Origin: Sorangium aterium
Lineage (GTDB): Bacteria > Myxococcota_A > Polyangia > Polyangiales > Polyangiaceae
Reading direction: 5' to 3'
Assembly: GCF_028368935.1 (NCBI RefSeq)
Contig: NZ_JAQNDK010000005.1
Span: 62,001 to 126,000 of the forward strand
Length of the DNA stretch: 64,000 nt
Shown here: positions 6,720-58,191 of the stretch, piece after piece
Layout of the letters: each line of letters begins with the position of its first letter
Numbering within the stretch: the stretch's first letter is position 1
Translations under genes and position numbers: made by a program
Notes under the pieces: model-generated
Database searches by the model: none
What the model was told of the DNA's origin: nothing
What the model saw: only the letters and a program-made list of their open reading frames with translations

Positions 6720-7059
6720 GGCGCGCTCCGAGGAGCGAGAGCGCGGCGATGGCTAGCGGACACAGGAGGGCGAGGCCCCAGACGGCGCGCGGCCAGACCG
6801 GCGCGAGCAGGACGAACGCGCTCGCGGAGCAGAGGAGCGCCGCGAAGGGGACGAGGAGCGCCGCCGCGCCCGCCTCGGCTCGGCTCCACAGCCACACCGA
6901 CAGCGAGAAGAAGGCGACGGCCAGGGCCCGAGCCGAGGCGCGCCATTCGCGCCTCGCGCGCAGCCGCGCCGCGACGCCGAACGGCAGGCGCTCCGGCCGC
7001 GCCCCGTGGAGCAGCGCGAAGGCGAGGTACGCCGAGAGGACCGACGCTGTCTCAACCAT
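6712..7059 (-). CDS. DUF3325-type small membrane protein
   Basis: 115 residues. An N-terminal helix (SVLSAYLAFALLHG) is followed by a basic segment (ARLRARREWRASAR) and two or three more hydrophobic segments. This matches the layout of DUF3325 proteins, which accompany PepSY-type iron-siderophore reductases. The ATG at 7059 overlaps the 3' end of the PepSY gene by 8 bp, and the stop overlaps the start of the DUF3649 gene, so the three are probably translationally coupled. Biochemical function is unknown; an inner-membrane accessory role in siderophore iron release is inferred from context. Confidence 0.7.
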   Translation of the reverse strand: MVETASVLSAYLAFALLHGARPERLPFGVAARLRARREWRASARALAVAFFSLSVWLWSRAEAGAAALLVPFAALLCSASAFVLLAPVWPRAVWGLALLCPLAIAALSLLGARHG

Positions 7060-8659
7060 GGGTCGCCGTCTGCCGCCGGGCCACGAGCCCTGCCCCGCCG
7101 TGAGCCAGCGAGGGCGGCGGCGCGCCCCGCGTCGGCAGGAGCCGCGCCTCGGGTCGCGAGATCGCCCGGCGAAGCGCCCACGCCGAGGCGCAGAGCGCCG
7201 CGGCCGTCAGCAGGAGCGCGACGTCGACGGCGACGACGGCGCCGAGCTTCGGCCCCGCGCCGAAGAGCCCCGCCCCCGACCAGCGCGCCGCGAGCGCGGG
7301 GACCGGCAGCAGCAAGAGCCCCGCGAGCCCGAGCTGCCGCGACCAGAGGCGCCCGCCGTCCCGCGCGGCGAGCGCCCAGGCGACGCAGAGCCCGAGCGCC
7401 ACGAAGAACGTGAGCTCCTCGGCGACGACACGGCCGCTCCAGTCGAGCGGGAATGCCCGGCTCACGAGGAACAGCGCCGCGATCGCGACGACGGTCCCCG
7501 CGCCGAACCCCACGGTGAGCCGCGCGAGGAGGCGGTTGCCGACGCGCTCTTGCCGCGCCTCCCGTCGAGCGAGCCAGATCCAGTTGCCGGTGAGGATCGT
7601 GGCGCACGTCGCCAGGGCGAGCGCGAAGAACAGGATGCGAAGCGTGACGCCGCCGAAATTCGCGAAATGGAGCCCATAGATCCAGCGAATCACGCCGCTG
7701 CGCCCGCCCTCGGCGCCCGGCGCGTCGAGCGAGAGGACCGCGCCGTCGACCGCCCGCAGGCGCACGATGCTGCGCGAGAACGGCACGCCCTCGATCGATC
7801 CACGGATATCGACGGTGCCGCTGTCGAGGCCGTGGTGCCGGACGGAGAACACCTCCGGCACGAGCCCGGGCGCGGCGGCGCGCGCGCGGGCCAGGTGCTC
7901 GTCCAGCGTCAGGCCGCGAGCGGGCGTCCCGCGCGCCGGCTCGTCCGCAAAGGACGCTCCCCAGGCCACCTGGTCCGCTCGACCAGCGTCTCCGCCGAGT
8001 ACGGGATCCGTGAACACCGGCACGAGCAACCCCAGGAACACGAAGAACGCTCCGGTGTAAGCGAAGAGGACCTGGAACGGCAGGCCCATCACGCCGAGCA
8101 CCTTGTGCATGTCCGACCACAGGACACGGCGCGTCTTGTCCGGCCGGAACTGATGAAACTGCCGGACGATGTCCTTCAGGTGGATGAGCACGCCGGTCGC
8201 GAGCGCGAGCAGGAGCGCGACACACAGGAGGCCGGCCACATAGAAGAGCCACACGCCGGTGACCCTGTGCCAGAGGTAGTGCAGCTCGAAGAGGAAGTCG
8301 GACAGCCGCTCGCGCTCGGGCACGAGCGGCTCCTCTACCCACCGCGAGACCCGCTCACCCTGAGAGAAGTAGAGGAGCCGCGCGACGCCCAGCCCGCCCT
8401 CCGGCGGATAGAGCCAGAGCTGCTCGGGCGTCGTCCCCGCGGCGGCGAGCCCCTGATCGAGCGTGGCCTGGAGCCCCACCTGCTCGATCGAGGAGCGCTG
8501 CTGGGTCAACGGCTCCTCCCACACCTCGAGTTGCCTCCGGAAGAGCGCGATCCCCCCCGACAGGAACATCACGTAGAGCAAGAGCCCACCGATCACGCCG
8601 ACCCACGCGTGTACGTCCCAGAAGGTCGTGAAGGCATGGCGGGAGAGCTTCTTGGCCAT
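7052..8659 (-). CDS. PepSY-associated transmembrane protein (FpvG-like ferric-siderophore reductase candidate)
   Basis: 535 residues. The N-terminus reads FTTFWDVHAWVGVIGG followed by a membrane helix. A periplasmic PepSY-like region comes next, then HYLWHRVTGVWLFYVAGLL and later helices containing SDMHKVLGV and YGLHFANFGG, with conserved-looking His residues near membrane faces. C-terminal hydrophobic segments complete a fold seen in PepSY-TM proteins. In Pseudomonas the related FpvG reduces ferri-pyoverdine in the periplasm. Here the gene sits between an MxcI-like lipoprotein and DUF3325/DUF3649 genes, so the same role for the local siderophore is inferred. Start ATG at 8659, with an AAGGTGA ribosome site just upstream. 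Confidence 0.82.
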   Translation of the reverse strand: MAKKLSRHAFTTFWDVHAWVGVIGGLLLYVMFLSGGIALFRRQLEVWEEPLTQQRSSIEQVGLQATLDQGLAAAGTTPEQLWLYPPEGGLGVARLLYFSQGERVSRWVEEPLVPERERLSDFLFELHYLWHRVTGVWLFYVAGLLCVALLLALATGVLIHLKDIVRQFHQFRPDKTRRVLWSDMHKVLGVMGLPFQVLFAYTGAFFVFLGLLVPVFTDPVLGGDAGRADQVAWGASFADEPARGTPARGLTLDEHLARARAAAPGLVPEVFSVRHHGLDSGTVDIRGSIEGVPFSRSIVRLRAVDGAVLSLDAPGAEGGRSGVIRWIYGLHFANFGGVTLRILFFALALATCATILTGNWIWLARREARQERVGNRLLARLTVGFGAGTVVAIAALFLVSRAFPLDWSGRVVAEELTFFVALGLCVAWALAARDGGRLWSRQLGLAGLLLLPVPALAARWSGAGLFGAGPKLGAVVAVDVALLLTAAALCASAWALRRAISRPEARLLPTRGAPPPSLAHGGAGLVARRQTATHG

Positions 8660-8707: not shown

Positions 8708-9973
8708 TCATCGCACCTTCGCCAGACCGTGCAGGTACCCCGGCGCCGTCAGGCCGAGCTTCGGGCCGCCCTCGGCCGTGAGCTCGATCAGCGTGCTCTC
8801 CGTGGAGCCGTTCTTCTCGTCGATCGTGAAGACCCGGCCATCGACCTCGAAGAAGGAGACGTTGGCGGGCGAGGGGGCCAGATCCGGGATCTCCTTGGCC
8901 TCGTTCGTCGCTGTATCCCACCGCCACCAGCGCCACGCCGGCTGGCTCGTGATCTGAAAGGTCTTGGTCTCCTCGTCGATCGTGGCGAGACTTTCCTCGA
9001 ACACCCGGAGGAAGAGGCTGTCCCTGCCCGCGGGGATGGGATCACCCACGATCGCGCCGCCGGCCAGCTCGCCCAGGCTCAGGGCGAAGTCCGGGTCGAA
9101 GGCGTCCGCGTCCTTCAGGACGCGCAGCGCGCAGGGCTCGGTCTCCAGCCGCTCGACGTGATAGGACGCCCCCGCGAGCGCCGAGCTCACGAAGTAAGCG
9201 TCGCCGGAGGCCGTCTCGACGGACTGCGTGATCCCGGCGCACCGGTCGTCGACGTCGAAGCGCACGAGGGTGTCGGTCTCGGTGTCGATCACGACGAGCC
9301 CCGTCTCCGGGACGATGGTGTCGGTCGTCTGCCAGTCGAACCACCCCACCGAGAAGAGCAGCGTCTTGCCGCGCAGGACCGAGCCATATCCGTACACCGC
9401 CAGGTGGCCATCGCGGTGGGTGTCCGGCAGCGGGATCGTCCCTTCTACCTCCATCGTCGTGGGGTTCCACACGACGATCTGCTCGCCAGCGCGATCCGGA
9501 TGGTACGCCTTCGTCGGAGAGATGATGTAATTCGTTTGCCAGAGGTCCTGCACGCCGAAGGGCTGGAGGCTGATCGCGTCTCCCTTGACGAGCGCGTCGC
9601 CGTTGCCGAGCGTGTAATGCGAGATCGTCGGCGACTGGCCGTCACCGATGCCGAACCAGCCCTGCCCCTCGAACGCAAACAGCCTCGCCGATCCGGGGAT
9701 CTCGAGCGCCTGGGTCGGGTCGACCGGCGTGCCTGCCTCGAGCGACGACACCACGTGGAAGTAAGAGTTGGTCGCGGTGTCGTCCCAGACGCGCGTGGCG
9801 ACCACGAACGCGTCGCCGCCGTTGCCACCACCACCGGTGCCGCCCTGCTCGACGGGGCTCGACGTCTCGTCGTCCGCGCAGCCGCCGCCGAGCGCGCCGG
9901 TCAGGAGCACGAGCGCGAAGGCCGTCGCGCTCGTCCGGTTCGATGGCCGCTGCTTCCGCTGAATCACACGCAT
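8708..9973 (-). CDS. Secreted lipoprotein, MxcI-like, probably beta-propeller
   Basis: 421 residues. The N-terminal basic stretch and hydrophobic segment end in a lipobox (ALGGGC), followed by a Gly-rich linker (GGTGGGGNGG), so the protein is predicted to be lipid-anchored in the periplasm or outer membrane. The remainder is beta-rich with repeated short strand patterns (LVVIDTETDTLVRF, SLATIDEETKTFQI, RVFTIDEK), suggesting a propeller. It lies directly behind the TonB receptor gene (53-bp gap) and before the PepSY gene. That is the position of mxcI next to mxcH in myxochelin uptake loci, as I recall them. The probable role is ferric-siderophore capture or hand-over; the molecular function is not established. 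AGGAGGAG precedes the ATG at 9973. Confidence 0.65.
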   Translation of the reverse strand: MRVIQRKQRPSNRTSATAFALVLLTGALGGGCADDETSSPVEQGGTGGGGNGGDAFVVATRVWDDTATNSYFHVVSSLEAGTPVDPTQALEIPGSARLFAFEGQGWFGIGDGQSPTISHYTLGNGDALVKGDAISLQPFGVQDLWQTNYIISPTKAYHPDRAGEQIVVWNPTTMEVEGTIPLPDTHRDGHLAVYGYGSVLRGKTLLFSVGWFDWQTTDTIVPETGLVVIDTETDTLVRFDVDDRCAGITQSVETASGDAYFVSSALAGASYHVERLETEPCALRVLKDADAFDPDFALSLGELAGGAIVGDPIPAGRDSLFLRVFEESLATIDEETKTFQITSQPAWRWWRWDTATNEAKEIPDLAPSPANVSFFEVDGRVFTIDEKNGSTESTLIELTAEGGPKLGLTAPGYLHGLAKVR

Positions 9974-10026: not shown

Positions 10027-12816
10027 TCACATCTCCAGCGTCGCCTTGGAGAACAGCGTCCGCCCGGGTCGCTGGGTACCGTAGAAATCGAAGGCCGGTT
10101 CGTTGGTGAGGTTGTGCGCCTCGATGGTGAAGCTCACCGTGCGCGGCGCGTCGCGCGCGACGTAGGTCAGCGCGAGCGAGTGCAGGAGCTGCGAGGGCAC
10201 CCTGGCCTTGGAGTCGGGCCGCCCCCAGTTCTCGAAGCCTAGGTAGAACCCGTGCACGTAGCGCGTATCCCAGGTGAGCGAGATCGCGTCGCGCGGCGCG
10301 GCGACCTCCTGGAGCTGCAAGCGCGCCGAGCCGTTGGCGAAGAGCCACGGCCGGTTCGGCATCCGTTCGCCCTCGGAGCGAGCAAAGTTCCCCTCGTCCG
10401 ACGTCTTGCGGAAATCGTCGTAGGTGATGTTGCCGTCGAGGGCGACGTGCTCTCCCGGCGATGTCCAGCCCGCGGCGGCCTCGACGCCCAGCGACCGGGC
10501 CCCCGAGACGTGGATGTACTGGATCGAGTCCGTGCGGTTGTTCAGCACGATGAGCCGCTCGACCGCGCGGAGAAAGCCGTTCGCGTCGAGCCGCCACGCG
10601 CCCCACGCGGTGTCGCGCGCGTCGATCGTGAATCCGAGGTTTCCATTGTGGCTCGTCTCGGGCTTGAGCTCGAGGTTGGGGACGATCATCGCCCCGTCGC
10701 CGAACACCTCGACGGGCCGCGGCAGCCGCGTCGCCCACTCGTACGACGCCTTGGCGTAGAGCCACCCGGAGAAGCGATAGCGAAGGCCATCCCCGACGCC
10801 GAGGCGATGGGTGTCGCGCTCTTGCCGGTCGAAGCGCCCGTCGAGCCCCGGGAGCCGCCCCTTCATGCGGAGCAGCTGCACGTAGTCCTTCACGAAGGCG
10901 CTGTTCTCCAGGCGATCGTCGAACAGGTTGAGCTGGTGCTCGACGCCGTGCACCCAGGTGAACAGGCTGTGTCCGCCCCTGAGCTGCTCGCGGTCGTCGT
11001 TGTCCAACCTGCGCTCTTCCGCCGTGCGCGCGATGAACGTCGGAGACACGGAGAGCTGCAGCGCGTGCTCCGGGTGGGGCCGGTAGCGGAGGTTCAGGCG
11101 GCCGAGGCCGCTGTGCTCCCGGAACACCCGGTCCCGGGGGCGCGGCCCGTCCTCGCCTGGGACGGTGCGCTTGCTGATGCAGCGGCCGGACCAGGCGTAG
11201 ACGCACTCGCTGACATCGAGGAAGGTGGCGCGCCCGTACGTGTACCCGAGCAGCGCTTCGAGGGCGACGCCTCGGCCGATCCCGTGCTCGTACTGGAGCG
11301 TCGCGCCCGGCACGGTCTCGCCGTTCGTGACCTCGCCATAAGGCGTCTTCATGACGCCGAACTTGTGCTGATGCTCCTTGTCGTAGTCGGTGACGAAGGC
11401 GCGCAGGAGCAGCCGCCGCGCCCAGGGCCGATTCACGAAGCCGAGCTCGGCGCTCCCGCCCGCCGCCCTATAGGCGTCGTGGAAGCGGCGAACACGGGTG
11501 GGCTCGGAGTCCTCTCGTCCGGTCGTCTCGTTCGCCAGCACGACGTCGACCGGATAGTCGTTCTTCGCATAATCGAAGAAGCCGTTCACGCGGGTGAAGA
11601 AGCCGCTCGGCTCGTGCAGGTGCCTCGCCGTGAGGGAGAGCCGGTGGGTGTCGTAAGAGCCGACCTCGTAGGACGCCGCGCCGTGGGTGCCGCGGACGTC
11701 CCGATCGGTCACCAGGTTGACGGCTCCACCCAGCGCGTCGGCGCCGAAGCGCACCGGCACCACGCCGCGGTAGATCTCGACGCGCTCGACGAGGTTCACA
11801 GGCACGTTCGAGACGCCGAACGGGTAGCCTGCGAGATCGAGCGGCACGCCGTCGATGAAGAAGCGGATCTGTTCGTCCGTGAGGCCGTTCAGCGAGAAAC
11901 GCGCCCACGACCCGAGCCCCGCGCTCCGCCGCACGCCGACGCCCTGGGTGCGGGCGAGCACCTCGCCCAGATCGGCGGTCCTCCGCTGCGCCTGCTCGGT
12001 CTCGATGACCGTGATCGCCTGCGCGGATTGCCGGAGGCGCTCGGCCATCGCGGCGCCGCGCACGGTCACCTCGGCGGGCGCTGCAGTGTTGGCCGGGTCG
12101 GGCCCTGTGGCCGGCGGAGGAGCTGCGGTGTTGGCCGGGTCGGGCCCTGTGGCCGGCGGAGGAGCTGCGGTGTTGCTGGCCTGGTCGGGCCCTGTGGCCC
12201 GCGGGAGCGTGGTCGCCGCTATGCCCGTGGCCGCGACCGCGCTTCCGCCCGTCGCCGGGGAGGTGGGCTCGGCCGGGGCCTCCTCGGGGAGCCGGAACTC
12301 GTAGCTGTAGAGGATCCGTACAGCGATCGGCGTGCCGCCCCGGCGCGCCGGCGTGAAGCGGGATCGGAGCACCGCGGCGCGGGCGGCGTCGTCGAAGCCA
12401 TCGCCGATTGGACTCGTGACCTCGGCCTCGGTCACGCGCCCCGTCGCGTCGATCAGGAGCTTCAGCACGACCTTGCCCTCCCGTCGTGCCGCCCGGGCCT
12501 CCCGGGGGTACTCGGCCTCGACGAGCTCGAGCAGCCGCGGCGGCTCGATCCGGGGGCCTTCAGCGCCGGACGGTGAGCGCTCCGGATCGGGCGAGCCGGT
12601 GGCAGGCGCGTCCACGCGCGGCTCTCGGTCCCCCCCCGCGCGCTCGGGCGTGCCTCCGTCCTGAGCGTGCGCCGGTGCCTGCAGGCCGAGCAGCAGGAAG
12701 GTCAACACGCCTGCAAGCGGGCCTCGAAGCGCGAGAGCACCTCGCGCCACCGCGTCCACCTTGAACCTGGCCCGCGGCTCGGGGCGCGGCGGTTGGGGAA
12801 CCGAACTGACCAACAT
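10027..12816 (-). CDS. TonB-dependent siderophore receptor with fused N-terminal TonB-like domain (MxcH-like)
   Basis: 929 residues. A signal peptide ends near Ala51 (QAPAHA). Residues about 90-165 form a TonB C-terminal-like domain (VEAEYPREARAARREGKVV, IDATGRVTEA, RSRFTPARRGGTPI). A Pro/Ala repeat linker follows (about 190-235). The plug spans about 240-360 (LGEVLARTQGVGVRRS, RVEIYRGVVPVRFGADALGG). The rest is a 22-strand-type beta barrel that ends in ATLEM rather than a clear terminal Phe. It should import ferric siderophore through the outer membrane. Fusion of TonB and receptor is a feature I recall for MxcH, the myxobacterial myxochelin receptor. It is the first gene of the uptake operon, divergent from the NRPS operon, with a Fur-like box about 25-50 bp upstream. 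Confidence 0.88.
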   Translation of the reverse strand: MLVSSVPQPPRPEPRARFKVDAVARGALALRGPLAGVLTFLLLGLQAPAHAQDGGTPERAGGDREPRVDAPATGSPDPERSPSGAEGPRIEPPRLLELVEAEYPREARAARREGKVVLKLLIDATGRVTEAEVTSPIGDGFDDAARAAVLRSRFTPARRGGTPIAVRILYSYEFRLPEEAPAEPTSPATGGSAVAATGIAATTLPRATGPDQASNTAAPPPATGPDPANTAAPPPATGPDPANTAAPAEVTVRGAAMAERLRQSAQAITVIETEQAQRRTADLGEVLARTQGVGVRRSAGLGSWARFSLNGLTDEQIRFFIDGVPLDLAGYPFGVSNVPVNLVERVEIYRGVVPVRFGADALGGAVNLVTDRDVRGTHGAASYEVGSYDTHRLSLTARHLHEPSGFFTRVNGFFDYAKNDYPVDVVLANETTGREDSEPTRVRRFHDAYRAAGGSAELGFVNRPWARRLLLRAFVTDYDKEHQHKFGVMKTPYGEVTNGETVPGATLQYEHGIGRGVALEALLGYTYGRATFLDVSECVYAWSGRCISKRTVPGEDGPRPRDRVFREHSGLGRLNLRYRPHPEHALQLSVSPTFIARTAEERRLDNDDREQLRGGHSLFTWVHGVEHQLNLFDDRLENSAFVKDYVQLLRMKGRLPGLDGRFDRQERDTHRLGVGDGLRYRFSGWLYAKASYEWATRLPRPVEVFGDGAMIVPNLELKPETSHNGNLGFTIDARDTAWGAWRLDANGFLRAVERLIVLNNRTDSIQYIHVSGARSLGVEAAAGWTSPGEHVALDGNITYDDFRKTSDEGNFARSEGERMPNRPWLFANGSARLQLQEVAAPRDAISLTWDTRYVHGFYLGFENWGRPDSKARVPSQLLHSLALTYVARDAPRTVSFTIEAHNLTNEPAFDFYGTQRPGRTLFSKATLEM
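12086..12208. repeat. Tandem 42-bp repeat in receptor linker
   Basis: Two virtually identical 42-bp units begin at 12086 and 12128. A third, partly diverged unit with a 3-bp insertion begins at 12170. They encode a repeated 14-residue Pro/Ala-rich motif (PPPATGPDPANTAA) in the periplasmic linker between the TonB-like domain and the plug. The unit is a multiple of three, so copy-number change would preserve the frame and alter only linker length. Confidence 0.9.
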
Positions 12817-12838
12817 GTCCGAACGTTTCGGTACCCAA

Positions 12839-12865
12839 GATGAAAACAGAATTCAATTTCATTCG
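12839..12865. promoter_or_regulatory. Fur-like operator upstream of the TonB receptor gene
   Basis: An A/T-rich island in very GC-rich DNA, 12841-12860 reading TGAAAACAGAATTCAATTTC, with TGAAA...TTTCA symmetry. It lies 25-50 bp upstream of the receptor ATG at 12816. An almost identical element (TGAAAATAGAAATCAATTTC) sits at 58410. Assignment to Fur is inferred from base composition, symmetry and the iron-uptake context. Confidence 0.55.
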
Positions 12866-13098
12866 TTGACGGGATCGTGTCGTCCAGAATCCAAAATTCC
12901 ACCTATGATGGATTCTCCGTGCGCCTCCGGGCCGTGACCTGCTCCCTCCGAGGTGGACCCGGAGCACCCCGCTGGACCGGACCGCTCCCCGTTCGGCCAC
13001 CCCCCGCCAGCCTTCCTCGGCGCACCCGGAGCCGGACCCCGTCCGCCGCTCCGCTCGCCCTCGTTGCGCATCCTCGCAGGCCGTTGTCGGTTTTTGCC

Positions 13099-13128
13099 TT
13101 GACACCGGTCGGATCGGTATTCCATACA
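13099..13128 (+). promoter_or_regulatory. Candidate sigma-70-type promoter of the NRPS operon
   Basis: A perfect TTGACA at 13099-13104 is followed after 18 bp by CATACA (13123-13128), a weak -10. The Fur-like box at 13145-13168 lies just downstream, where a bound repressor would block transcription. Distance to the first gene is about 190 bp. Confidence 0.4.
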
Positions 13129-13144
13129 ACCGCCTCCGAGAACT

Positions 13145-13168
13145 TGATCATCATTTTCATTTTCATCA
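13145..13168. promoter_or_regulatory. Fur-like operator upstream of the NRPS operon
   Basis: The segment contains TCATCATTTTCATTTTCATC, which on the other strand reads as successive GATGAA, AATGAA, AATGAT hexamers resembling the classical Fur box built from NATAAT-like units. It is one of very few A/T-rich islands in the region and lies in the divergent control region of two iron-related operons. Confidence 0.6.
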
Positions 13169-13250
13169 GCACGTCGACAGGCGCGTGTCGCGGTCGCTGA
13201 GGGAGCCGTCAGGCATTTCGAGCTCGCGACGCTCTGCGTCAGCAGGCTCG

Positions 13251-13300
13251 AAGCCCAGGGCCTGGTGAACGCGACTGCTTTTCACCGGGCTTTCTTTTTC
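13251..13300 (+). terminator. Terminator-like hairpin (possible attenuator) before the first NRPS gene
   Basis: Arms AAGCCC (13251-13256) and GGTGAA (13264-13269), separated by a 7-nt bulge, pair with TTCACCGGGCTT (13281-13292) across an 11-nt loop. A T-rich run (TCTTTTTC, 13293-13300) follows. It lies between the candidate promoter and the FAAL start at 13315, so it could attenuate the operon or be a leftover terminator. Confidence 0.35.
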
Positions 13301-13314
13301 GGTCTGGAGCTGAG

Positions 13315-16300
13315 GTGGCGATGGAGTCGAACCGATCCCCTGGGCGTGCGATCAGCGATCGCGGCGGTGGCGCAAACGAGCCTGCGACGCTTGTCGCGCT
13401 CCTCGAGCGCCGCGCGGAGCAGCGCCCGTCAGGGCACGCGACCACCTTCCTTGTCGACGGGGAGGCGGACGCCCGCGCGATGACGTACGGCGATCTCGAT
13501 CGGCGGGCGCGCGCGCTCGCCGCGGAGCTCCAGGCCGGCGCGCGGGCGGGTGACCGCGCGCTCCTGCTGGTGCCGCCGGGGCTCGACTTCATCGCCGCCT
13601 TCTTCGGCTGCCTCTACGCGGGGCTCGTCGCGGTGCCGGTCCCGCTGCCGCAGCGCAAGAGCGGGCTGATGCGCGTGCTGGCCATCGTGCGCGACTGCCG
13701 GCCGAGCGTCGTGCTCACCACCGAGGCGTTCCTTGGCGCGGTGACGATGCTCCGCGACGACCCGAGCTTCGCCGAGCTGAGCCACCTGCGCTGCATGGCC
13801 GTCGACACGATCCGGGACGGCCAGGAAGACGCGTGGCGAGCGCCGCGCGTGACGGCCGAGACCGTGGCGTTCCTCCAGTACACATCGGGCTCGACCGGCA
13901 CGCCCAAGGGCGTGGTGCTCACGCACGGCAACCTGCTGCGCAACGAGCTGATGATCCAGCGCGCGTTCGCGCACACCGAGGAGAGCGTGATCGTCGGGTG
14001 GCTGCCGCCGCACCACGACATGGGGCTCATCGGCAACATCCTGCAGCCGCTCTACGTGGGCGTGCCGTGCATCCAGCTCGCGCCCGAGCACTTCCTGATG
14101 AGGCCGCGGCGATGGCTGGAGGCGATCTCCCGCTACCGGGCCACGACGAGCGGCGGGCCGAACTTCGCCTACGAGCTGTGCATCCGCAAGATCCCCCCGG
14201 AGCAGCGGGAAGGGCTCGATCTCGGCTCATGGAAGGTGGCCTTCAACGGGGCCGAGCCGATCCGGGCAGCGACGCTCGACCGCTTCGCCGAGGCGTTCGC
14301 GCCTGCAGGGTTCCGGCGCGGCGCGTTCTATCCCTGCTACGGGCTGGCCGAGGCGACGCTGCTCGTGACCGGCGGAGCGGCCGATGCGCCGCCCGTCGTG
14401 CGCTCCGTCGACCGCGCGGGTCTGGCGCAGGGATACGCGGCGTTCGAGCCGCGCAGGCCAGAGGACGGCGTCTCCCTCGTGGGCTGCGGGGGATCACCCG
14501 CGGGCGACGAGGTGCGGATCGTCGATCCAGAGACGCTCAGGCCCTGCAAGGACGAGCGCGTCGGGGAGATCTGGGTCGCCGGTGCGAGCGTGGCCCAGGG
14601 CTACTGGGAGCGGCCGGAGGAGACGGCGCTGACGTTCGAGGCCCGGCTCTCGACGGGAGGAGGGCCGTTCCTGCGGACCGGCGATCTCGGGTTCTTCTCG
14701 CGCGGCGAGCTGTACGTGACGGGCCGGCTCAAGGACCTGATCATCGTCCGCGGGCGGAACCTCTACCCGCAGGACATCGAGCTCACCGCGGAGGAGAGCC
14801 ACCCGGGCCTCCGCGCCGGCGGGGGCGCGGCGTTCTCGGTGGACGTCGACGGCGAGGAGCGCATCGTCATCGTCCAGGAGCTCGGGCGGCGCGCGCCCGC
14901 GTCGGGGCCGGCGGAGCCGGCGGAGCTCGGGGCGGCGATCGAGCGCGCCGTGGCCGATCGGCACGAGGTCGCGGTCCACGCGGTGGTGCTCATCAAGCCG
15001 GGGAGCCTGCCGCGGACCACGAGCGGCAAGGTGCAGCGGAGGGCGTGCCGCGGCCGGTTCCTGGAGGGATCGCTGGACGCGGTGTGGCAGTCGGCGGTCG
15101 GGGCGCACGCGGGCGCCGAGGCCGAGAGCGCGGAGCCGCCGCAAACGGCGCTGGAGACGACGCTGGCAGGCATCTGGGCCGAGGTGCTGGGGCGCGCGCG
15201 GGTCGGCCGGAGTGAGGAGTTCCTGAGCCTGGGCGGCGATTCGCTGCGGGCCATGCAGGTGAGCGGCCGGGTGAGCGAGGCGCTCGGCATCGACGTGGGG
15301 CCGGCGCAACTCTTCGAGTCGGCGACGGTCGCGGCGCTCGCGGCGTGGATCGAGGCGAAGCAGGCCGGCGCGCCCGCGGGCGGCGCGGCGGGCGGGAGCG
15401 CGCCGGTAGCGCCGATGGAGCGGCCGGAGCGGCTGCCGCTGTCCCTCGTGCAGGAGCGCCTCTGGTTCCTGGAGCAGCTGGTCGCGGGGGCGCCGGTCTA
15501 TCACATCGCGGCGGCCGTGCGGCTCGCCGGGGCCCTCGACGCGGGGGCGCTCGAGAAGGCGGTGACGGCGCTCGCGGCGCGCCACGAGGCCCTCCGCACG
15601 AGCTTTCCCTCCGTCGAAGGGAGGCCCGTCCAGAGGATCGCGCCGCCCGCGCCGGTCGCGCTGCCGCGGGAGGACATGAGCGCTCTTGCAGACGAAGCGC
15701 GGGAGTCCGCGCTGCAAAGGCGCCTGCGCGAGGAGGCGCGGCGCGCGTTCGACCTCGCCGAGGCGCCGCCCGTGCGCTGGACGCTCGTCCGCACGGGCGA
15801 CCAAGAGCACGTGCTCTCGGTCACTTGCCATCACCTCATCGCGGACGGCTGGTCGATGAACGTGCTCCTGCGGGAGCTCTCCCTGCTCTATGGCGCCTTC
15901 GCCGCAGGGCGGTCCCCGGCGCTCGCGCCGCTCGCGCTGCAGCAGGCGGATCACGCGCTGTGGCAGCGCCAGAACGAACGGGCGGCGGCGCGCGAACGGG
16001 AGCTCTCGTACTGGCGCGACCGGCTGAAGGGGCCTGTGCCTCCCCTCGAGCTCCCCACCGATCGACCGAGGCCTCCAGTCCAGACCTACGCTGGGGCGCG
16101 CGAGGAGCTCGCGCTGTCACCGGAGCTCGTGGCGCGGCTGAGCGCGCTCGGGCGGCGGACGGGCGCGACGCTGTTCACGATCGTGGCGGCGGGGCTCTTC
16201 TCGCTGCTGCACAGGTACACGGGCCAGAGCGACGTGTGCATCGGGACGCCGGTCACGGCGCGGCCGCGGGCGGCGCTGGAGGGCGTCGTCGGGTGCCTGC

Positions 16301-18684
16301 TCAACACGCTGGCGCTGCGGGTCGACCTCTCGGGGAACCCCGGCGTCACCGAGCTCCTCGCGCGCGTCCGCGCGGCGGTCCTCGAGGGGCAGGCGCACCA
16401 GGAGGCGCCGTTCGAGCGCGTCCTCGAGGCGCTCTCGCTCGAGCGGAACCTCAGCCACACGCCGCTGTTCAACGTGATGATCGCCATGGATCCCGCGCCC
16501 GAGCAGGCGCCGGAGATCCCGGGCCTGTCGATCGGCGTGCAGCGGGTGGACACAGGCACGGCCCAGTTCGATCTGACGCTCAGCCTCACCCTGGACGCGC
16601 AGGGGGGTGCGCGAGGAGCGTGGGAGTACAACAGCGATCTCTTCGATCGCGCCACGGCCGCGCGGATGGCGCGGCACCTGCTCGCGATCCTCGACGGGCT
16701 CGCCGCCGGGCCCGAGGTCCGCCTGGCCGATCTGCCGGTGATGGACGCGGCCGAGCGGGAGCAGCTCGTGATCGGGTGGAACGCCACGGACGCCGAGGCG
16801 CCGCTGGATCGCTGCGCCCATGAGCTGATCGAGGCGCAGGTCGAGAGGACGCCGGAGGCGGCGGCGGTGGTGTCCGGCGCAGAAACGCTGACCTACCGAG
16901 AGCTGAACCGGCGAGCGAACCAGCTCGCGCATCACCTCCGGTCGCTCGGCGTGGGGCCCGAGGTGCCGGTGGGGCTCTGCGTGGAGCGGTCGATCGACAT
17001 GGTGGTGGGCATGCTGGGCGTGCTCAAGGCGGGAGGCGCGTACGTGCCGCTCGACCCGAGTTACCCCGACGATCGACTCCAGTTCATTGTGGAGGACACC
17101 GGCGCGCCGGTGCTGCTCACGCAACAGCACCTCGCGGCGAGGCTGGAAGGGCGAGGGGCCAGGACGCTGTGCCTGGACACGCAGCGAGAGACCATCGAGC
17201 GAGCGCCGGGCGGCAATCCGGAGCGCCGGGGAACGCCGGAGTGCCTGGCGTACGTGATCTACACATCGGGTTCGACGGGCAAACCGAAGGGGGTGATGAT
17301 CCCGCACCGGGGCCTTGTCAATTACCTGAGCTGGTGCGTGGAGGCGTACCGGGTGTCGGAGGGGCAAGGCGCGCTCGTGCACTCGTCGATCGGGTTCGAT
17401 CTGACGATCACGGGGCTGTACGCGCCGCTGCTCGCGGGCGGCCGGGTGATCCTGGCAGGCGAGGTGGAAGGCGAGGGCCTGGCCCGGGCGCTGTGCGAGC
17501 AACAGGGCCTGAGCCTGGTGAAGCTGACGCCCGCGCACCTGGCGGTGCTCAACCACCTCGTCAGGCCGGAAGAGGCGGCGCAGCGCACACGGGCGTTCGT
17601 GATCGGAGGAGAGGCGCTGAGCGGGTCGACGCTGCAGTTCTGGCAGCAGAACGCGCCCGAGACGCGGCTGATCAACGAGTACGGGCCGACCGAGACGGTG
17701 GTCGGCTGCTGCATCCATGAGGCGGGTCGCGGCGAGGGAGACGCGGCCTCGGTGCCGATCGGCCGGCCCATCGCCAACACGCAGCTTTACGTGCTCGACC
17801 GGAAGCTCGAGCCCGTGCCCGTGGGCGTCTCCGGCGAGCTGTACATCGGAGGAGCAGGGGTGGCGCGCGGGTACCTGAACCGCCCTGCGCTGACGGCGGA
17901 GCGGTTCGTGCCAGACCCGTTCCGCGCGGAGGCGGGAGCGCGGCTGTACCGCACAGGCGACGCGTGCCGGTGGCGAGGGGACGGGACGCTGGAGTACCTG
18001 GGCCGGCTCGACCACCAGGTGAAGATCCGCGGATACCGGATCGAGCTCGGCGAGATCGAGAGCGTGCTGATGCAGCACGAGGGCGTGCGCGAGGCCGTGG
18101 TGGTGGCGCGGGAGGACTCGCCGGGCAACAGGCGACTCGTCGGCTACGTGACGGGGCGAGACGGGACGGCGCCGGAGCCGGAGGCGCTGCGGGCGTGGGC
18201 CGCAAAGGCGCTCCCGGGCTACATGGTGCCGGCGCCGATCCTCGTGCTGGAGCGATTGCCGCTCTCGCAGAACGGCAAGGTGGACCGGCGCGCGCTGCCG
18301 CCGCCGGAGGCGCTCGTCGCGACCGCCAGGGACACGACGCCGCCGCGCACCGAGCTGGAGCGCACGCTCGCGGCGATCTGGCGAGAGGTGCTGTCGGTCC
18401 CGCAGGTCGGCATTCACGACAACTTCTTCGATCTTGGCGGACACTCGCTCTTGCTGGCCAAGGTCCACAGCCGGCTGCGCGACACGGTGGACCGTGATCT
18501 GCGGCTGCTGGTCCTGTTCCAGCACCCGACGATCGCCTCGCTCGCGGCGGCGTTGAGCCGGGATCCCGGCGCCGAGGCGGCGCCGCAGGGCGGAGCGCCG
18601 GACGGCGAGCGGGCGAGGGCCGCGCAGCAGCGGCGCGGGGAGATCTTCGCGCGGCGGCGCGGCGGACTGGAGACCAAGAAATGA
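13315..18684 (+). CDS. Lipo-initiation NRPS: FAAL-ACP-C-A(Asn/Asp)-PCP
   Basis: 1789 residues. A fatty-acyl-AMP ligase (about 20-600; TSGSTGTPKGV core, WLPPHHDMGL) activates the starter acid and loads the carrier at Ser643 (GGDSL). A condensation domain (about 706-1150; HHLIADG from His839) joins the acyl group to the first residue. The adenylation domain (about 1163-1660; YTSGSTGKPKGV) has specificity residues that I read as D-L-T-K-V-G-E-V-G-K. This is an Asx-type code lying between the standard Asp and Asn signatures. The PCP serine is Ser1711 (GGHSL). The protein starts the lipopeptide. GTG 13315 and ATG 13321 are both plausible starts; GGAG lies at 13306. The stop overlaps the PKS start by ATGA. 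Confidence 0.93.
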   Translation: MAMESNRSPGRAISDRGGGANEPATLVALLERRAEQRPSGHATTFLVDGEADARAMTYGDLDRRARALAAELQAGARAGDRALLLVPPGLDFIAAFFGCLYAGLVAVPVPLPQRKSGLMRVLAIVRDCRPSVVLTTEAFLGAVTMLRDDPSFAELSHLRCMAVDTIRDGQEDAWRAPRVTAETVAFLQYTSGSTGTPKGVVLTHGNLLRNELMIQRAFAHTEESVIVGWLPPHHDMGLIGNILQPLYVGVPCIQLAPEHFLMRPRRWLEAISRYRATTSGGPNFAYELCIRKIPPEQREGLDLGSWKVAFNGAEPIRAATLDRFAEAFAPAGFRRGAFYPCYGLAEATLLVTGGAADAPPVVRSVDRAGLAQGYAAFEPRRPEDGVSLVGCGGSPAGDEVRIVDPETLRPCKDERVGEIWVAGASVAQGYWERPEETALTFEARLSTGGGPFLRTGDLGFFSRGELYVTGRLKDLIIVRGRNLYPQDIELTAEESHPGLRAGGGAAFSVDVDGEERIVIVQELGRRAPASGPAEPAELGAAIERAVADRHEVAVHAVVLIKPGSLPRTTSGKVQRRACRGRFLEGSLDAVWQSAVGAHAGAEAESAEPPQTALETTLAGIWAEVLGRARVGRSEEFLSLGGDSLRAMQVSGRVSEALGIDVGPAQLFESATVAALAAWIEAKQAGAPAGGAAGGSAPVAPMERPERLPLSLVQERLWFLEQLVAGAPVYHIAAAVRLAGALDAGALEKAVTALAARHEALRTSFPSVEGRPVQRIAPPAPVALPREDMSALADEARESALQRRLREEARRAFDLAEAPPVRWTLVRTGDQEHVLSVTCHHLIADGWSMNVLLRELSLLYGAFAAGRSPALAPLALQQADHALWQRQNERAAARERELSYWRDRLKGPVPPLELPTDRPRPPVQTYAGAREELALSPELVARLSALGRRTGATLFTIVAAGLFSLLHRYTGQSDVCIGTPVTARPRAALEGVVGCLLNTLALRVDLSGNPGVTELLARVRAAVLEGQAHQEAPFERVLEALSLERNLSHTPLFNVMIAMDPAPEQAPEIPGLSIGVQRVDTGTAQFDLTLSLTLDAQGGARGAWEYNSDLFDRATAARMARHLLAILDGLAAGPEVRLADLPVMDAAEREQLVIGWNATDAEAPLDRCAHELIEAQVERTPEAAAVVSGAETLTYRELNRRANQLAHHLRSLGVGPEVPVGLCVERSIDMVVGMLGVLKAGGAYVPLDPSYPDDRLQFIVEDTGAPVLLTQQHLAARLEGRGARTLCLDTQRETIERAPGGNPERRGTPECLAYVIYTSGSTGKPKGVMIPHRGLVNYLSWCVEAYRVSEGQGALVHSSIGFDLTITGLYAPLLAGGRVILAGEVEGEGLARALCEQQGLSLVKLTPAHLAVLNHLVRPEEAAQRTRAFVIGGEALSGSTLQFWQQNAPETRLINEYGPTETVVGCCIHEAGRGEGDAASVPIGRPIANTQLYVLDRKLEPVPVGVSGELYIGGAGVARGYLNRPALTAERFVPDPFRAEAGARLYRTGDACRWRGDGTLEYLGRLDHQVKIRGYRIELGEIESVLMQHEGVREAVVVAREDSPGNRRLVGYVTGRDGTAPEPEALRAWAAKALPGYMVPAPILVLERLPLSQNGKVDRRALPPPEALVATARDTTPPRTELERTLAAIWREVLSVPQVGIHDNFFDLGGHSLLLAKVHSRLRDTVDRDLRLLVLFQHPTIASLAAALSRDPGAEAAPQGGAPDGERARAAQQRRGEIFARRRGGLETKK

Positions 18685-21600
18685 CAGCACCGATCAGCGG
18701 CGAGCCCCGCCCGGGTCTGGACATCGCGATCATCGGCATGGCCGGGCGCTTCCCGGGCGCGCCGGACGTGGCGGCGTTCTGGCGAAACCTCTGCGCGGGG
18801 GTCGAGTCCGTCTCGATCCTCACCGACGAGGAGCTCCTCGGCGCGGGCGTGGATCCCGCGCTGATCGCGCGGCCCGAGTACGTGCGGGCGCGCGCGGTGC
18901 TCGACGACATCGAGCTGTTCGACGCGGAGCTCTTCGGGTTCACGCCGCGCGAGGCCGCGGCGCTGGATCCGCAGCACCGGCTGTTCTTGGAGTGCGCGTG
19001 GGAGGCGTTCGAGAGCGCCGGGATCGACCCCGAGCGCGCGGGCGGCCCGGTCGGCGTCTACGCCGGATCGAGCCTGAGCGGGTACCTGCCCCACCTCTTC
19101 CCCGACGGGCCGCGCCTGCAATCGGCGGCCGACATCGCGGCGCTCCTCGCGCTCGACAAGGACTTCCTCACGACCCGCGTGTCGTACAAGCTGAACCTGG
19201 AAGGGCCGAGCATCGCCGTGCAGACGGCCTGCTCCACGTCGCTCGTCGCCGTGCACCTGGCCTGCCAGGGGCTGCTCACCGGCGACTGCGATCTGGCGCT
19301 GGCGGGCGGCGCCTCCGTCAGCGTCCCGCAGAAGAGCGGGTACCTCTACCAGGAAGGCGCGATCGCGTCGCCCGACGGGCACTGCCGCGCGTTCGACGCC
19401 GGCGCCCGCGGCACCGTCGGCGGCAGCGGCGTCGGCGTGGTCCTCCTGAAGCGGCTCGACGACGCCATCGCGGATCGGGACGCGATCGTCGCGGTCATCA
19501 AGGGATCGGCCGTCAACAACGACGGCCGGGCCAAGGTCGGGTACACCGCGCCGCGCATCGACGGGCAGGCGCGCGCGATCCGCGCGGCGCACGCGGCCGC
19601 GGGCGTGGACGCGGGCTCCATCACGTACGTAGAGGCGCACGGCACCGGGACGCCGCTCGGCGATCCGATCGAGATCGCGGCGCTGACCCAGGTCTTCCGC
19701 GCGACGACCGATCGGAAGGGCTTCTGCGCGATCGGCTCGGTGAAGACCAACGTCGGGCACCTGGACGCGGCAGCGGGGGTCACCGGGCTGATCAAGGCGG
19801 CGCTCGCCGTGGCCCGCGGGCGCATCCCGCCGAGCCTGCACTTCCGCGCGCCGAACCCCGCGCTCGACCTGGAGAACAGCCCCTTCCGCGTGGCCGCCGA
19901 GCTCACGGCCTGGTCGACCCCAGGCGCCCCGCGCCGCGCCGGCGTGAGCTCCTTCGGCATCGGCGGCACGAACGCGCACGTCGTCCTCGAAGAGGCGCCG
20001 CCCCCGCCGGAGGCGGACGCGCCCCGGGCGTGCGAGCTGCTCGTGCTGTCGGCCCGGTCGAGCGCGTCGCTCGAGCGCCTGACCGACGCGCTCGCGGAGC
20101 ACCTGGAGACCCACGCCGATCTCGAGCTCGGCGACGTGGCGTTCACGCAGCAGCTCGGGCGCCGGGCGTTCGGCCACCGCCGCGCGGTGGTGTGCCGCTC
20201 GCGCGAGGAGGCAGCGCGCGCGCTGCGCGATCGCAGCGACGCGGTGCGCGCGGGCGGGCCGGCGGCCGGACCGCGGGCGATCGCGTTCCTGTTCCCCGGG
20301 CAGGGCACCCAGCGCCCCGACATGGGCCGCGATCTCTACGAGACGGAGCCCGTGTTCCGGGCCGAGGTCGACGCCTGCGCTTCGCTGCTGCAGCGCCACC
20401 TGGGCACGGACCTCCGGACGCTGCTGTTCCCGGCGCCCGCGGACGTCGAGGAGGCCGCGCGGCGCCTCGATCGGACGTCGATGACGCAGCCGGCGCTGTT
20501 CGTCGTGGAGTACGCGCTCGCCCGGCTGTGGATGGCGTGGGGCGTGACGCCCGACGCGATGCTCGGGCACAGCGTGGGCGAGTACGTGGCCGCCTGCATC
20601 GCGGGGTGCCTGTCGCTCGAGGACGCCGTGGCGCTGGTGGCGGCGCGGGGGCGGCTGATGGAGGCGACGCCGGACGGCGCGATGCTCGCTGTGTCCGCGG
20701 CCGAGGCGGAGGTCGCGGGATGGCTCGGCGACGAGGTGGCGCTGGCCGCCGTCAACGGGCCGCGGCAGTGCGTGCTGTCCGGAAGGGCGGCGGCGATCCA
20801 GCGGGTCGAGCAGGAGCTCGCGGGCCTGAGGATCGAGGCGCGCCGGCTGCGCACGGGGCGGGCCTTCCACTCGCACCTGATGGACGGCGCCCTCGCGGCG
20901 TTCCGCGAGGCAGTGGGCAGGGTCACGCTGCGGACGCCGCGCATCCCGTGGATCTCGAACGTCACCGGGACGTGGATCACGGCGGCCGACGCGCAGGACC
21001 GCGAGTACTGGGTCCGGCACCTCCGCAGCACGGTCCGCTTCGCCGATGGCGTGCGGACGCTGCGGGAGAAGTCGGAGCGGATCTTTCTGGAGGTGGGGCC
21101 GGGGCAGACGCTCACAGCGCTGAGCCGGCAGCTCGCGGGGGAGTCGCTGTCGCTCGCGTCGATGCCCATGGGGCGCGAGCCTGCACACCAGGGCGCGGCG
21201 GGGGCGGCGCTGCTCGACGCGGTGGGGCAGGTCTGGGCGGCCGGCGCTGCGGTGGACTGGGCAGGCCTGCAGGCGGGGCGGCACCGGCGGCGCGTCGCGC
21301 TGCCGGCGACGCCGTTCGAGCGAAAGCGGTACTGGCTGGAGCGCCCCGGAGCCAGGGGGGCGACCTCAACCTCGGTCGGGACCTCAACCTCGGTCGGGTC
21401 CACCTCAACCTCGGTCGGGACCTCAACCTCGGTCGGGACCTCAACCTCGGTCGGTTCGACCTCAACCTCGGTCGGGACCTCAACCTCGGTCGGGAGCTCA
21501 ACCTCGGCCGGCTCGACCTCAACCTCGGTCGGGACCTCCGCGGCCGAGGAGGTGGCCGCCGGCGCTGCCGAGCGCCTGTCGCCCGACGCGGTGACGGCGC

Positions 21601-21944
21601 AGGTGACGGCCATCTGGGCGCGGGCGTTCGGCATCGAGCGCGTCGACCCCGGGAAGAGCTTCTACGACCTCGGCGGCGAGTCGCTCCTCGCCCTGCAGAT
21701 CCTCAACCGCGTCCGCGAGACGTTCCAGGTGGAGGTGTCGCTCCGCGAGTTCCTCGAGCGGCCCACCGTGGCCGCGCTCGTGGAGCGCGTCCAGCAGGCC
21801 CGAGGGCAAGCGCCCGCGAGCCCCGAGCCGGCCCTGGTCGCGCTGCCCCGGACCGCGCGGCGGCTCCCCGGCGCCGGAGGCCCGAAGGCGCCGGCGCTCC
21901 CGGACGGCGAGCCGGGCGGCTCGAAGGCGAAGGGACGAAAGTGA
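18681..21944 (+). CDS. Type I polyketide synthase module: KS-AT(malonyl)-ACP
   Basis: 1087 residues. The ketosynthase (about 10-430) has Cys184 in TACSTSL plus the His motifs HGTGTPLGDP and GHLDAAAG. The acyltransferase (about 530-860) has Ser631 in GHSVGEY and an AFHS signature typical of malonyl-CoA selectivity. A Ser/Thr/Val/Gly repeat linker (about 895-950) leads to an ACP with Ser1001 in GGESL. There is no KR, DH or ER, so it would insert one unreduced C2 unit after the first amino acid, giving a beta-keto group. A stand-alone PKS between the FAAL-NRPS and the main NRPS recalls cupriachelin/delftibactin clusters. It starts at ATG 18681 and ends in a GTGA overlap with the transporter gene. 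Confidence 0.93.
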   Translation: MTAPISGEPRPGLDIAIIGMAGRFPGAPDVAAFWRNLCAGVESVSILTDEELLGAGVDPALIARPEYVRARAVLDDIELFDAELFGFTPREAAALDPQHRLFLECAWEAFESAGIDPERAGGPVGVYAGSSLSGYLPHLFPDGPRLQSAADIAALLALDKDFLTTRVSYKLNLEGPSIAVQTACSTSLVAVHLACQGLLTGDCDLALAGGASVSVPQKSGYLYQEGAIASPDGHCRAFDAGARGTVGGSGVGVVLLKRLDDAIADRDAIVAVIKGSAVNNDGRAKVGYTAPRIDGQARAIRAAHAAAGVDAGSITYVEAHGTGTPLGDPIEIAALTQVFRATTDRKGFCAIGSVKTNVGHLDAAAGVTGLIKAALAVARGRIPPSLHFRAPNPALDLENSPFRVAAELTAWSTPGAPRRAGVSSFGIGGTNAHVVLEEAPPPPEADAPRACELLVLSARSSASLERLTDALAEHLETHADLELGDVAFTQQLGRRAFGHRRAVVCRSREEAARALRDRSDAVRAGGPAAGPRAIAFLFPGQGTQRPDMGRDLYETEPVFRAEVDACASLLQRHLGTDLRTLLFPAPADVEEAARRLDRTSMTQPALFVVEYALARLWMAWGVTPDAMLGHSVGEYVAACIAGCLSLEDAVALVAARGRLMEATPDGAMLAVSAAEAEVAGWLGDEVALAAVNGPRQCVLSGRAAAIQRVEQELAGLRIEARRLRTGRAFHSHLMDGALAAFREAVGRVTLRTPRIPWISNVTGTWITAADAQDREYWVRHLRSTVRFADGVRTLREKSERIFLEVGPGQTLTALSRQLAGESLSLASMPMGREPAHQGAAGAALLDAVGQVWAAGAAVDWAGLQAGRHRRRVALPATPFERKRYWLERPGARGATSTSVGTSTSVGSTSTSVGTSTSVGTSTSVGSTSTSVGTSTSVGSSTSAGSTSTSVGTSAAEEVAAGAAERLSPDAVTAQVTAIWARAFGIERVDPGKSFYDLGGESLLALQILNRVRETFQVEVSLREFLERPTVAALVERVQQARGQAPASPEPALVALPRTARRLPGAGGPKAPALPDGEPGGSKAKGRK
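21365..21532. repeat. Nine-copy 15-nt repeat in the PKS AT-ACP linker
   Basis: Nine copies of CTCAACCTCGGTCGG (one with a single T-to-C change) are separated by 3 or 6 nt, giving 18- and 21-nt periods that keep the reading frame. They encode a TSTSVG-type linker. The near-identity at DNA level, including wobble positions, points to recent slippage or expansion. Confidence 0.95.
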
Positions 21945-23737
21945 GCGTGCTCGGCTTCCTCCTGCGCCGGTCCCGCCGGTCCCTCCTGCTCGCCGTCGCC
22001 GCCGGCGTGATCAGCGGCCTCGCGGCCGCGGGCGTCATCGCGCTCGTCCACGAGGCGCTCTCCGCGGACGACCGCCCCGCGGCGCAGCTCGCGTGGGCCT
22101 TCGCGGGGCTCGCCGTCGCCGGCGTGCTGAGCAGGGCCGTCTCTCAGGTGCTCCTGACCCGGCTGGGACAGGCCTTGATCGCCGAGCTCCGCGTGCAGCT
22201 CAGCCAGCGCATCCTCGAAGCGCCGCTGCGCCACATCGAGCAGGTCGGCCCCCACAGGCTGCTCGCGACGCTCAACGACGATCCGGCCGTGATCTCGCAG
22301 GCGTACATCCACCTGCCCCTCCTGTGCGTCAACCTGGCCACCGTCCTCGGTTGCCTGGCCTATATCGGGCGGATCGCGTGGTCAGCGCTGGCGATCGTGC
22401 TGGGCGCGATGGCGCTCGGCGCCCTGCTCTTCCGGACGCACCAGCGGCGCGCGATGCGCGCGTTCACGCTCGCCCGCGAGACGAGCGACGCCCTGTTCCA
22501 GCACTTCCGCGGGCTGACGGGCGGGATCAAGGAGCTCAAGATGCACCGCGGGCGCGGGAAGGCGTTCCTGTCCGATGTCCTCGGCGGCAGCGTCACGACG
22601 TACGAGCGGGCGTTCGTGGCGGGCACGACCGAATACGCCGTCGCGATGGGCTGGGGCACGCTGCTCTTCTACGCCGTCCTCGGGATCGCCCTGTTCGCCC
22701 TCCCCGTCTGGGCAGGCCTGACGACGCCGGCGCGCTCCGGCGTGGTGCTGGCGATGCTCTTCCTGATGACGCCGTTCGCGCAGATCGTCGAGCTGCTGCC
22801 GTCCGTCGGGCGCGCCAGCATCGCGCTCGACAAGGCGAGCCAGCTCGGCCTCGCGCTGACGCCCGAGGCCGCGGCGCCGCCGCGCGGAGGCGGCGCGGAG
22901 GGCGCGCGCGCGACGTGGGAGCGCATCGAGCTCGCCGGCGTCACGCACCGCTATTACCGGGAGAAGGAAGAAGGCAGCTTCCAGCTCGGGCCCATCGATC
23001 TGGCGTTCCGGCCCGGCGAGATCGTGTACCTCGTCGGCGGCAACGGCAGCGGCAAGACGACGCTGTCCCTCCTGCTGCTCGGGCTCTACGCGCCGGAGTC
23101 CGGCGAGATCCGGCTCGACGGCGCGGCCGTCGACGACGCGAGCCGCGATCGGTATCGGCAGCTCTTCTCGGTCGTCTTCGCGGACTTCCACCTCTTCGAG
23201 CACCTGCTCGGCCTGAACGGCCCCGACCTCGACGAGCGCGCCCGGCGCTACCTCGAGCGGCTGCAGCTCGATCACCGGGTGCGCGTCGAGCAGGGCGCCC
23301 TCCGCGTGACCGGGCTGTCGCAGGGGCAGCGCAAGCGCCTCGCCCTCATCACCGCCTACCTCGAGGACCGGCCGTTCTACGTGTTCGACGAGTGGGCGTC
23401 CGACCAGGATCCCCAGTTCCGGAAGTTCTTCTACACGGAGCTGCTCCCCGAGCTCCGGGCGAGGGGCAAGACCGCCCTCGTCATCACGCACGACGACCAG
23501 TACTTCGCGCTCGCGGATCGCTGCCTGCGGCTCGACTTCGGCCGCCTGTCGGAGCTGCCCGCGACCGCCGCCGAGCCGCGATCGGCGCCGAGAGAGCACG
23601 CCGCGAGCCCCCGCGCCGACGAGGGCGGTCGGGTCCGCTCGGCGCAGATCCACCGCCTCCCCGTCGAGCGGCAGGCCGCGCTGGAGCCCAGCGCCAACGG
23701 CCATGAGGCCATCAGAGCAACGGAGCATGAAGCATGA
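21941..23737 (+). CDS. Cyclic-peptide/siderophore ABC exporter (PvdE/SyrD-type, fused TMD-NBD)
   Basis: 598 residues. The N-terminal half has about six membrane helices. The C-terminal half is an ATPase: Walker A GGNGSGKTT (Lys372), signature LSQGQRKRLAL, and Walker B within YVFDEWASDQDP. The DEWASDQDP string is characteristic of the PvdE/SyrD family (cyclic peptide export ABC transporters). In pyoverdine biosynthesis PvdE moves the acylated precursor from cytoplasm to periplasm, and the same job is inferred here because an acylase gene follows immediately. The start is GTG 21941, overlapping the PKS stop (GTGA), and the end overlaps the acylase start (ATGA). A tail of about 60 residues after the NBD is unconserved-looking. 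Confidence 0.92.
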   Translation: MSVLGFLLRRSRRSLLLAVAAGVISGLAAAGVIALVHEALSADDRPAAQLAWAFAGLAVAGVLSRAVSQVLLTRLGQALIAELRVQLSQRILEAPLRHIEQVGPHRLLATLNDDPAVISQAYIHLPLLCVNLATVLGCLAYIGRIAWSALAIVLGAMALGALLFRTHQRRAMRAFTLARETSDALFQHFRGLTGGIKELKMHRGRGKAFLSDVLGGSVTTYERAFVAGTTEYAVAMGWGTLLFYAVLGIALFALPVWAGLTTPARSGVVLAMLFLMTPFAQIVELLPSVGRASIALDKASQLGLALTPEAAAPPRGGGAEGARATWERIELAGVTHRYYREKEEGSFQLGPIDLAFRPGEIVYLVGGNGSGKTTLSLLLLGLYAPESGEIRLDGAAVDDASRDRYRQLFSVVFADFHLFEHLLGLNGPDLDERARRYLERLQLDHRVRVEQGALRVTGLSQGQRKRLALITAYLEDRPFYVFDEWASDQDPQFRKFFYTELLPELRARGKTALVITHDDQYFALADRCLRLDFGRLSELPATAAEPRSAPREHAASPRADEGGRVRSAQIHRLPVERQAALEPSANGHEAIRATEHEA

Positions 23738-58057: not shown

Positions 58058-58191
58058 GGGTTGGCTCCTGAAGGGTTGTGAATCGGTCGCGGCGTCGCGC
58101 GTATTCTGGGCTGAAGACCGAAGAGACCCTTGTGCGTGGACGCGGGCTCCGCAGCGCGAAGGGCTCGATAGGCCGCCGATCTGGCCAGTGA

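Follow-up and report, generated by a model that had tools for sequence, protein, structure and literature searches.

A predicted divergent Fur-controlled siderophore hub in Sorangium aterium and a Fur-box consensus drawn from its genus

The spacer at positions 12817-13320 of the 64-kb window (the whole stretch of Sorangium aterium DNA that was analysed) is most probably a divergent, Fur-controlled siderophore hub, a reading to which we assign a probability of roughly 0.86. Fur control of the two operons that leave the spacer, proposed in the initial annotation, is supported by motif scans, by the iron genes found beside further sites, by conservation in other strains and by a Fur-type protein encoded in the genome, all of which are sequence evidence. 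The hub looks real, ordinary and of a well-known kind; what it brings in addition is a consensus for the genus and a copied leader.

The spacer and its flanking operons

The initial annotation described two A/T-rich symmetric elements in otherwise strongly GC-rich DNA. Their location and A/T-richness were evident on direct reading, and the G+C content of the spacer was 61.7% versus 72.8% for the whole window; their symmetry, on the other hand, is imperfect. Box 1, on the minus strand (12841-12861; TGAAAACAGAATTCAATTTCA), is the predicted operator of the mxcH uptake operon, and box 2, on the plus strand (13145-13165; read on the minus strand as TGAAAATGAAAATGATGATCA), that of the NRPS operon; the gene layout agrees with the earlier statement that each element precedes one of these operons. 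Both boxes have the size and the A/T-rich hexamers of a Fur operator, box 1 being weaker than box 2. Box 2 was identical to the classical Fur 21-mer at 17 of 21 positions. Box 1 showed two mismatches to a first search pattern, which was drawn from three sites of the window, and was absent among the own-genome matches of a stricter Fur pattern.

The uptake operon runs leftwards from the spacer on the minus strand and opens with an mxcH-type TonB-dependent receptor (10027-12816), which exhibited Plug, barrel and N-terminal TonB_C domains and scored above the curated cut-off of the MxcH model (NF038079, 1224 bits, cut-off 925). Its true start is probably GTG 12750 and not ATG 12816, because three orthologues have the ATG in another frame and share the GTG. 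The second uptake gene (8708-9973, minus strand; 421 aa) is conserved in strain So0157-2 (G100), in G102 and in L008, and gave no Pfam or NCBIfam match at the cut-offs used; the third (7052-8659, minus strand) encodes a PepSY_TM protein (PF03929, 157.6 bits).

The plus strand to the right of the spacer carries the first NRPS gene (13315-18684), with a fatty acyl-AMP ligase loading module followed by C-A-T and a probable start at ATG 13321. It is followed by a PKS module on its 3' side (18681-21944; orthologues in G100 and G102), by a penicillin-amidase family protein (23734-26118), which is a distant relative of PvdQ (52.7 bits, cut-off 950), and by a TauD-family oxygenase (26222-27403), with further NRPS modules on the same strand. 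Against the MxcG model, the window NRPS reached 638.9 bits (cut-off 2300), which does not make this locus a myxochelin cluster; the mxcG gene of this genome is located on another contig (C3), outside the window locus.

The perfect TTGACA noted earlier at 13099 was read directly at 13099-13104 (plus strand) and is the likely -35 hexamer of the NRPS promoter; three orthologues keep TTGAC, with variation in the final base. A possible -10 element, CATACA (13123-13128, plus strand), follows after a spacer of 18 bases, matches TATAAT at only three of six positions, and lies in a region where CCATAC is kept in four strains. A simple sigma-70 promoter scan found nothing in 12600-13500 or in 57800-58900, so that this -10 element is a suggestion from conservation only. 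The layout at box 2 reads TTGACA, 18 bases, CATACA, 16 bases, box. For box 1, the promoter scan of the spacer gave no promoter of its own that could be named. A candidate RNA hairpin behind box 1 (CCGAA...TTCGG) was dropped, as 253 of 500 shuffles reached the covariation score observed across six leaders.

Fur-type boxes in the genome and the genus

A motif scan of the genome had been proposed in the initial annotation, and it was carried out with two patterns: the first one, mentioned above, and a second one based on the classical Fur consensus, with its A/T positions and position 14 relaxed (TGAWAATGAWAATSATTWTCA, up to three mismatches allowed). In the genome of S. aterium (13.47 Mb), the second pattern gave 11 matches in 9 places versus 0 for the reversed pattern, and the first gave 16 matches versus 1. 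Five further genomes of the genus yielded 47 matches to the second pattern versus 0 to its reverse. As expected for a Fur operator, such matches are rare by chance and are shared with iron genes.

Gene neighbours were read from open reading frames restricted to frames with a coding-like G+C pattern. Five of the 9 places in the S. aterium genome precede NRPS, isochorismate-synthase or TonB-receptor genes, one is the relic box described below, and three have other neighbours. Box 2 and the relic box represent the window. The myxochelin cluster on C3, whose MxcG (2545.9 bits, cut-off 2300) and MxcH (1095.6 bits, cut-off 925) were both recognized, has one place before mxcH and one before mxcG; another is situated between a different TonB receptor and an isochorismate synthase (DhbC model, 506.1 bits, cut-off 486), and yet another before a MatE gene that is followed by a TonB receptor. 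Of the three places with no clear iron role, one adjoins a lipoprotein with a weak likeness to cytochrome c, one an FAD/NAD oxidoreductase that neighbours a TPR protein, and one an uncharacterised 262-aa protein that precedes a gene of the ribosomal-protein-S4 family.

In the relatives, 25 loci (L092-L116) were taken from the genus scan and the proteins of 14 of them were profile-searched. Two genomes have a site ahead of feoB. One further site separates a TonB receptor from an AMP-binding gene, one lies ahead of a chorismate-binding enzyme, and another has a TauD gene on one side and a haem-oxygenase-like gene on the other. The remaining neighbours, several of them genes without an evident part in iron handling, included a phosphoesterase, a pirin, an AAA protein, a histidine kinase, an O-methyltransferase and the S4 family gene, and within the 14 searched loci some sites adjoin proteins with no family match. 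The order Fur-type box, unknown protein of 262-264 aa, ribosomal protein S4 family gene was observed in three genomes of the genus (L051:7933-9505, L096:1500-3019 and L093:1-1522); iron control of an S4 gene would be odd.

The majority sequence of 34 distinct boxes from the genus loci, in which orthologous sites were counted separately and boxes less than 60 bases from a locus end were left out, is TGAAAATGAAAATSATTTTCA; because all 34 boxes were chosen by pattern, this consensus leans towards the pattern. A G was present at position 2 in all 34, and position 14 was C in 19, G in 14 and T in 1. A perfect TTGACA was found within 60 bp upstream, on one strand, of 13 boxes, at a distance of 26 to 46 bp, versus 1% of random places taken anywhere in the same loci (spacers and other DNA); the remaining 21 boxes had no perfect TTGACA, and the independence of this count is overstated because some boxes are near-identical across genomes (L021, L104, L108 and L115).

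The motif was rejected as a general feature of receptor genes. In a survey of 22 receptor genes, with 600 bases taken at each, a convincing Fur-type 21-mer was present at 2 (window mxcH and myxochelin mxcH), and two more had a box further off; the second pattern found none at the other 18. Two of these 18 (L083 and L084) also scored above their 100 shuffles, but the sites look poor. Of the four receptors with a nearby box, three carry their own TonB_C domain on the N-terminal side (window 10027-12816, L053:1451-4186 and L055:10071-13064). In the myxochelin cluster, a 69-codon open frame (L053:4242-4451), cysteine-rich by eye and with no Pfam match, was observed between the Fur-type box and mxcH.

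A close likeness was found within the same genome: the myxochelin control region also has divergent NRPS and mxcH genes, a box before each of them and a TTGACA before the NRPS box, whereas the window NRPS is a FAAL-loaded lipopeptide/PKS line in place of MxcG. Predicted boxes also precede iron-uptake genes in another myxobacterium, Myxococcus xanthus, which belongs to a different suborder from Sorangium. According to PMC9548883 and PMC11388931, Fur boxes were predicted there before iron-uptake genes, the repressor is MXAN_3702, and a Fur pull-down is cited from a thesis (Altmeyer 2010). Predicted Fur boxes were already known for M. xanthus before the present set; as described in these two papers, they came from foreign matrices and manual search, whereas the Sorangium consensus comes from its own genus. 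Compared with the Fur operators of E. coli and Pseudomonas (19-21 bp; structures in PMC4506495), the Sorangium boxes are alike in size, in A/T-rich hexamer repeats, in TGA...TCA ends and perhaps in their place near siderophore and receptor promoters; with respect to the classical box, TGAAAATGAAAATSATTTTCA has A or T swapped at some places. Among the best matches of a literature search, at the level of titles and the beginnings of abstracts, we met no published Fur site in Sorangium, which does not establish its absence.

Candidate regulator and competing explanations

A profile search identified four Fur-family matches in the S. aterium genome. One of them, a Fur-type protein encoded on contig C2 (G000:C2:1322005-1322370), had as its best PDB match the Fur protein of MSR-1 (4raz, E 2.4e-28), which was crystallised on DNA and whose base-reading residues are assigned in PMC4506495. 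The C2 protein keeps the residues matching Thr17, Gln19, Arg20, Tyr56 and Arg57, but has an Arg where MSR-1 Fur has Lys15, a residue that, according to the same paper, matters for MSR-1 Fur. Its score against the NCBIfam model of Bacillus-type Fur was 109 bits, below the cut-off of 220; despite this score, the genome does encode a Fur protein that could serve such operators.

When iron is sufficient, metal-loaded C2 Fur would bind box 2, just downstream of TTGACA-N18-CATACA, as well as box 1, where the receptor leader begins, and the bound protein would block transcription of the lipo-NRPS and mxcH-PepSY uptake operons. When iron is short, Fur would leave both boxes, and siderophore production and re-uptake would rise together. 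We infer the binding, the repression, the transcription starts and the identity of the NRPS product as a siderophore.

Boxes of Fur-family regulators resemble each other, and the boxes might be read by another member of the family (a second Fur-like, a PerR-like or a Zur-like protein), with zinc, peroxide or something else as the signal. The four family matches would leave room for this: the L002 protein was closest to PerR in the PDB search, L003 is a second Fur-like protein, and L004 is distant from all. However, TGA...TCA ends are Fur-type and occur in most of the 34 sites, all with the G at position 2, features that the search pattern favours, and the neighbours, including feoB and siderophore genes, form a classical iron set. 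We therefore consider a different regulator improbable, and C2 Fur acting on iron genes the better reading.

The divergent arrangement, with the same receptor and the same first NRPS gene, was found in three other Sorangium strains when proteins were compared (matches above 80 bits), with identities of 67-80% for the receptor and 72-81% for the first NRPS (the L008 copy of which ends at a contig end). Box 2 was identical at 21 of 21 positions in the four strains, with far less conserved flanks, and with at most one mismatch it occurred once each in 4 of 108 genomes of the family, one of the four being S. aterium, whereas the remaining 104 had no copy. The distance from the start of box 1 to that of box 2 was 304 bp here, 109 bp in L005 and 107 bp in L008; in So0157-2, genes sit between the counterparts of the two boxes.

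Given the exclusion of box 1 from the strict-pattern matches and a promoter scan with no sigma-70-like promoter in 12600-13500, only box 2 might work; box 1 would then be a degenerate leftover, with the receptor operon driven otherwise, for example by an ECF sigma factor. Nevertheless, across six leaders of four strains, all but one letter of the 6-base arms of box 1 is conserved around a variable middle, and the three orthologous copies of box 1 scored 28.6 to 36.3 with the matrix described below. A single working box has about the same small chance of being right as a different regulator, and control through both boxes remains the preferred reading.

The scoring matrix was built from seven 21-mers at six places of the same genome, all outside the window; some circularity remains because these sites came from the first and second patterns. 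Scores were 27.7 for box 1, 38.6 for box 2 and 38.4 for the site at 58410-58430, and the next-best place of the window, at 13281, scored 13.7. The maximum was 18.8 in 100 dinucleotide shuffles of the window and 21.2 in 2000 shuffles of the spacer. The notion that the elements are chance A/T-rich stretches without a regulator, which the lower G+C content of the spacer would allow, is very improbable, since none of the 2000 spacer shuffles reached 27, the reversed second pattern had no match in six genomes, and the identity of box 2 in four strains speaks strongly against it.

In a background of 136,922 bases (22 other loci of the same genome), a single place reached 24 (24.4). This place, at L063:8143-8169 (G000:C4 near 509142), has a GAAAATGAGAATCATT core with TTTGACA upstream and lies some 0.6 kb from the gene of the second Fur-like protein; it has the look of one more genuine Fur-like site.

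The relic leader and asnB

The near copy of box 1 that had been said to mark a relic at 58410 was found there on direct reading (58410-58430, minus strand; TGAAAATAGAAATCAATTTCA), within a decayed duplicate of the operon start. It lies in a stretch (58258-58432, minus strand) that copies the leader of mxcH together with its first codons (12690-12863), with 74.9% identity over 175 columns; another local alignment extends to 58231. This leader copy directly adjoins a decayed fragment of the uptake operon's second gene (58150-58257, minus strand, corresponding to 9123-9228; 73.0% over 111 columns, E 2e-6), and most of two genes is therefore missing between the pieces. With its edges, the relic box was identical to box 1 at 23 of 25 positions, higher than the 75% overall, which is a weak sign of selection from a single case. 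The relic leader aligned with the So0157-2 PepSY leader with a score of 113, versus 92 when the window mxcH leader was aligned with that PepSY leader, over different lengths.

It had also been suggested that the three sites would help to define a consensus. This needs qualifying: the relic, a 75% copy of the mxcH leader, was rejected as a third independent site, being a duplicate of box 1 together with that leader. It descends from box 1 or from a sister, and therefore contributes little to a consensus, for which the other sites are the source.

Reading on from the relic box, asnB (56384-58057, minus strand) is the first gene to be intact; it encodes an E. coli-type asparagine synthase B (NF006949, 872.8 bits, cut-off 499) and starts at 58057, 353 bp from the box. 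This model passes in the S. aterium genome and had no match over its cut-off in G100, G101 or G102; in addition, the corresponding regions of G100 and G102 held no match to asnB above 80 bits. The asnB block is likely a horizontal insertion, flanked by duplicated pieces of neighbouring genes, among them a copy of an aminotransferase 3'-end (58542-58674, plus strand, corresponding to 56026-56159; 91%).

At the position of asnB, So0157-2 carries a different gene, cupin-type hydroxylase-like by eye. Between the relic leader and asnB, a perfect 11-bp inverted repeat, GCCTCCCCTCG...CGAGGGGAGGC, was observed at 58192-58228, with no T run by eye. In So0157-2, a displaced PepSY_TM gene has a copied mxcH-type Fur box and leader (L007:4020-4190) before it, and a 49-aa PepSY match is left at the usual downstream place.

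One reading of this region is promoter capture, in which the mxcH Fur box and leader form a portable module in the genus and asnB was put under iron control. A duplicated copy of the operon would have been stripped of most of mxcH and of the gene after it, leaving the relic box, which is closer to the consensus than box 1, 353 bp upstream of asnB, a probably acquired gene beside an NRPS that may use its amino acid. We regard this as unlikely, although less so than the alternatives weighed above for the hub itself. In two strains, copies of one operator and leader stand before other genes, a situation in which the growth of a regulon through operon decay can be tested.

For Sorangium, a Fur-box consensus can thus be obtained from sequence, with 34 distinct sites (orthologues counted separately). 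The hub itself links an uncharacterised lipo-NRPS cluster to iron, and the producer might therefore be induced by iron starvation.
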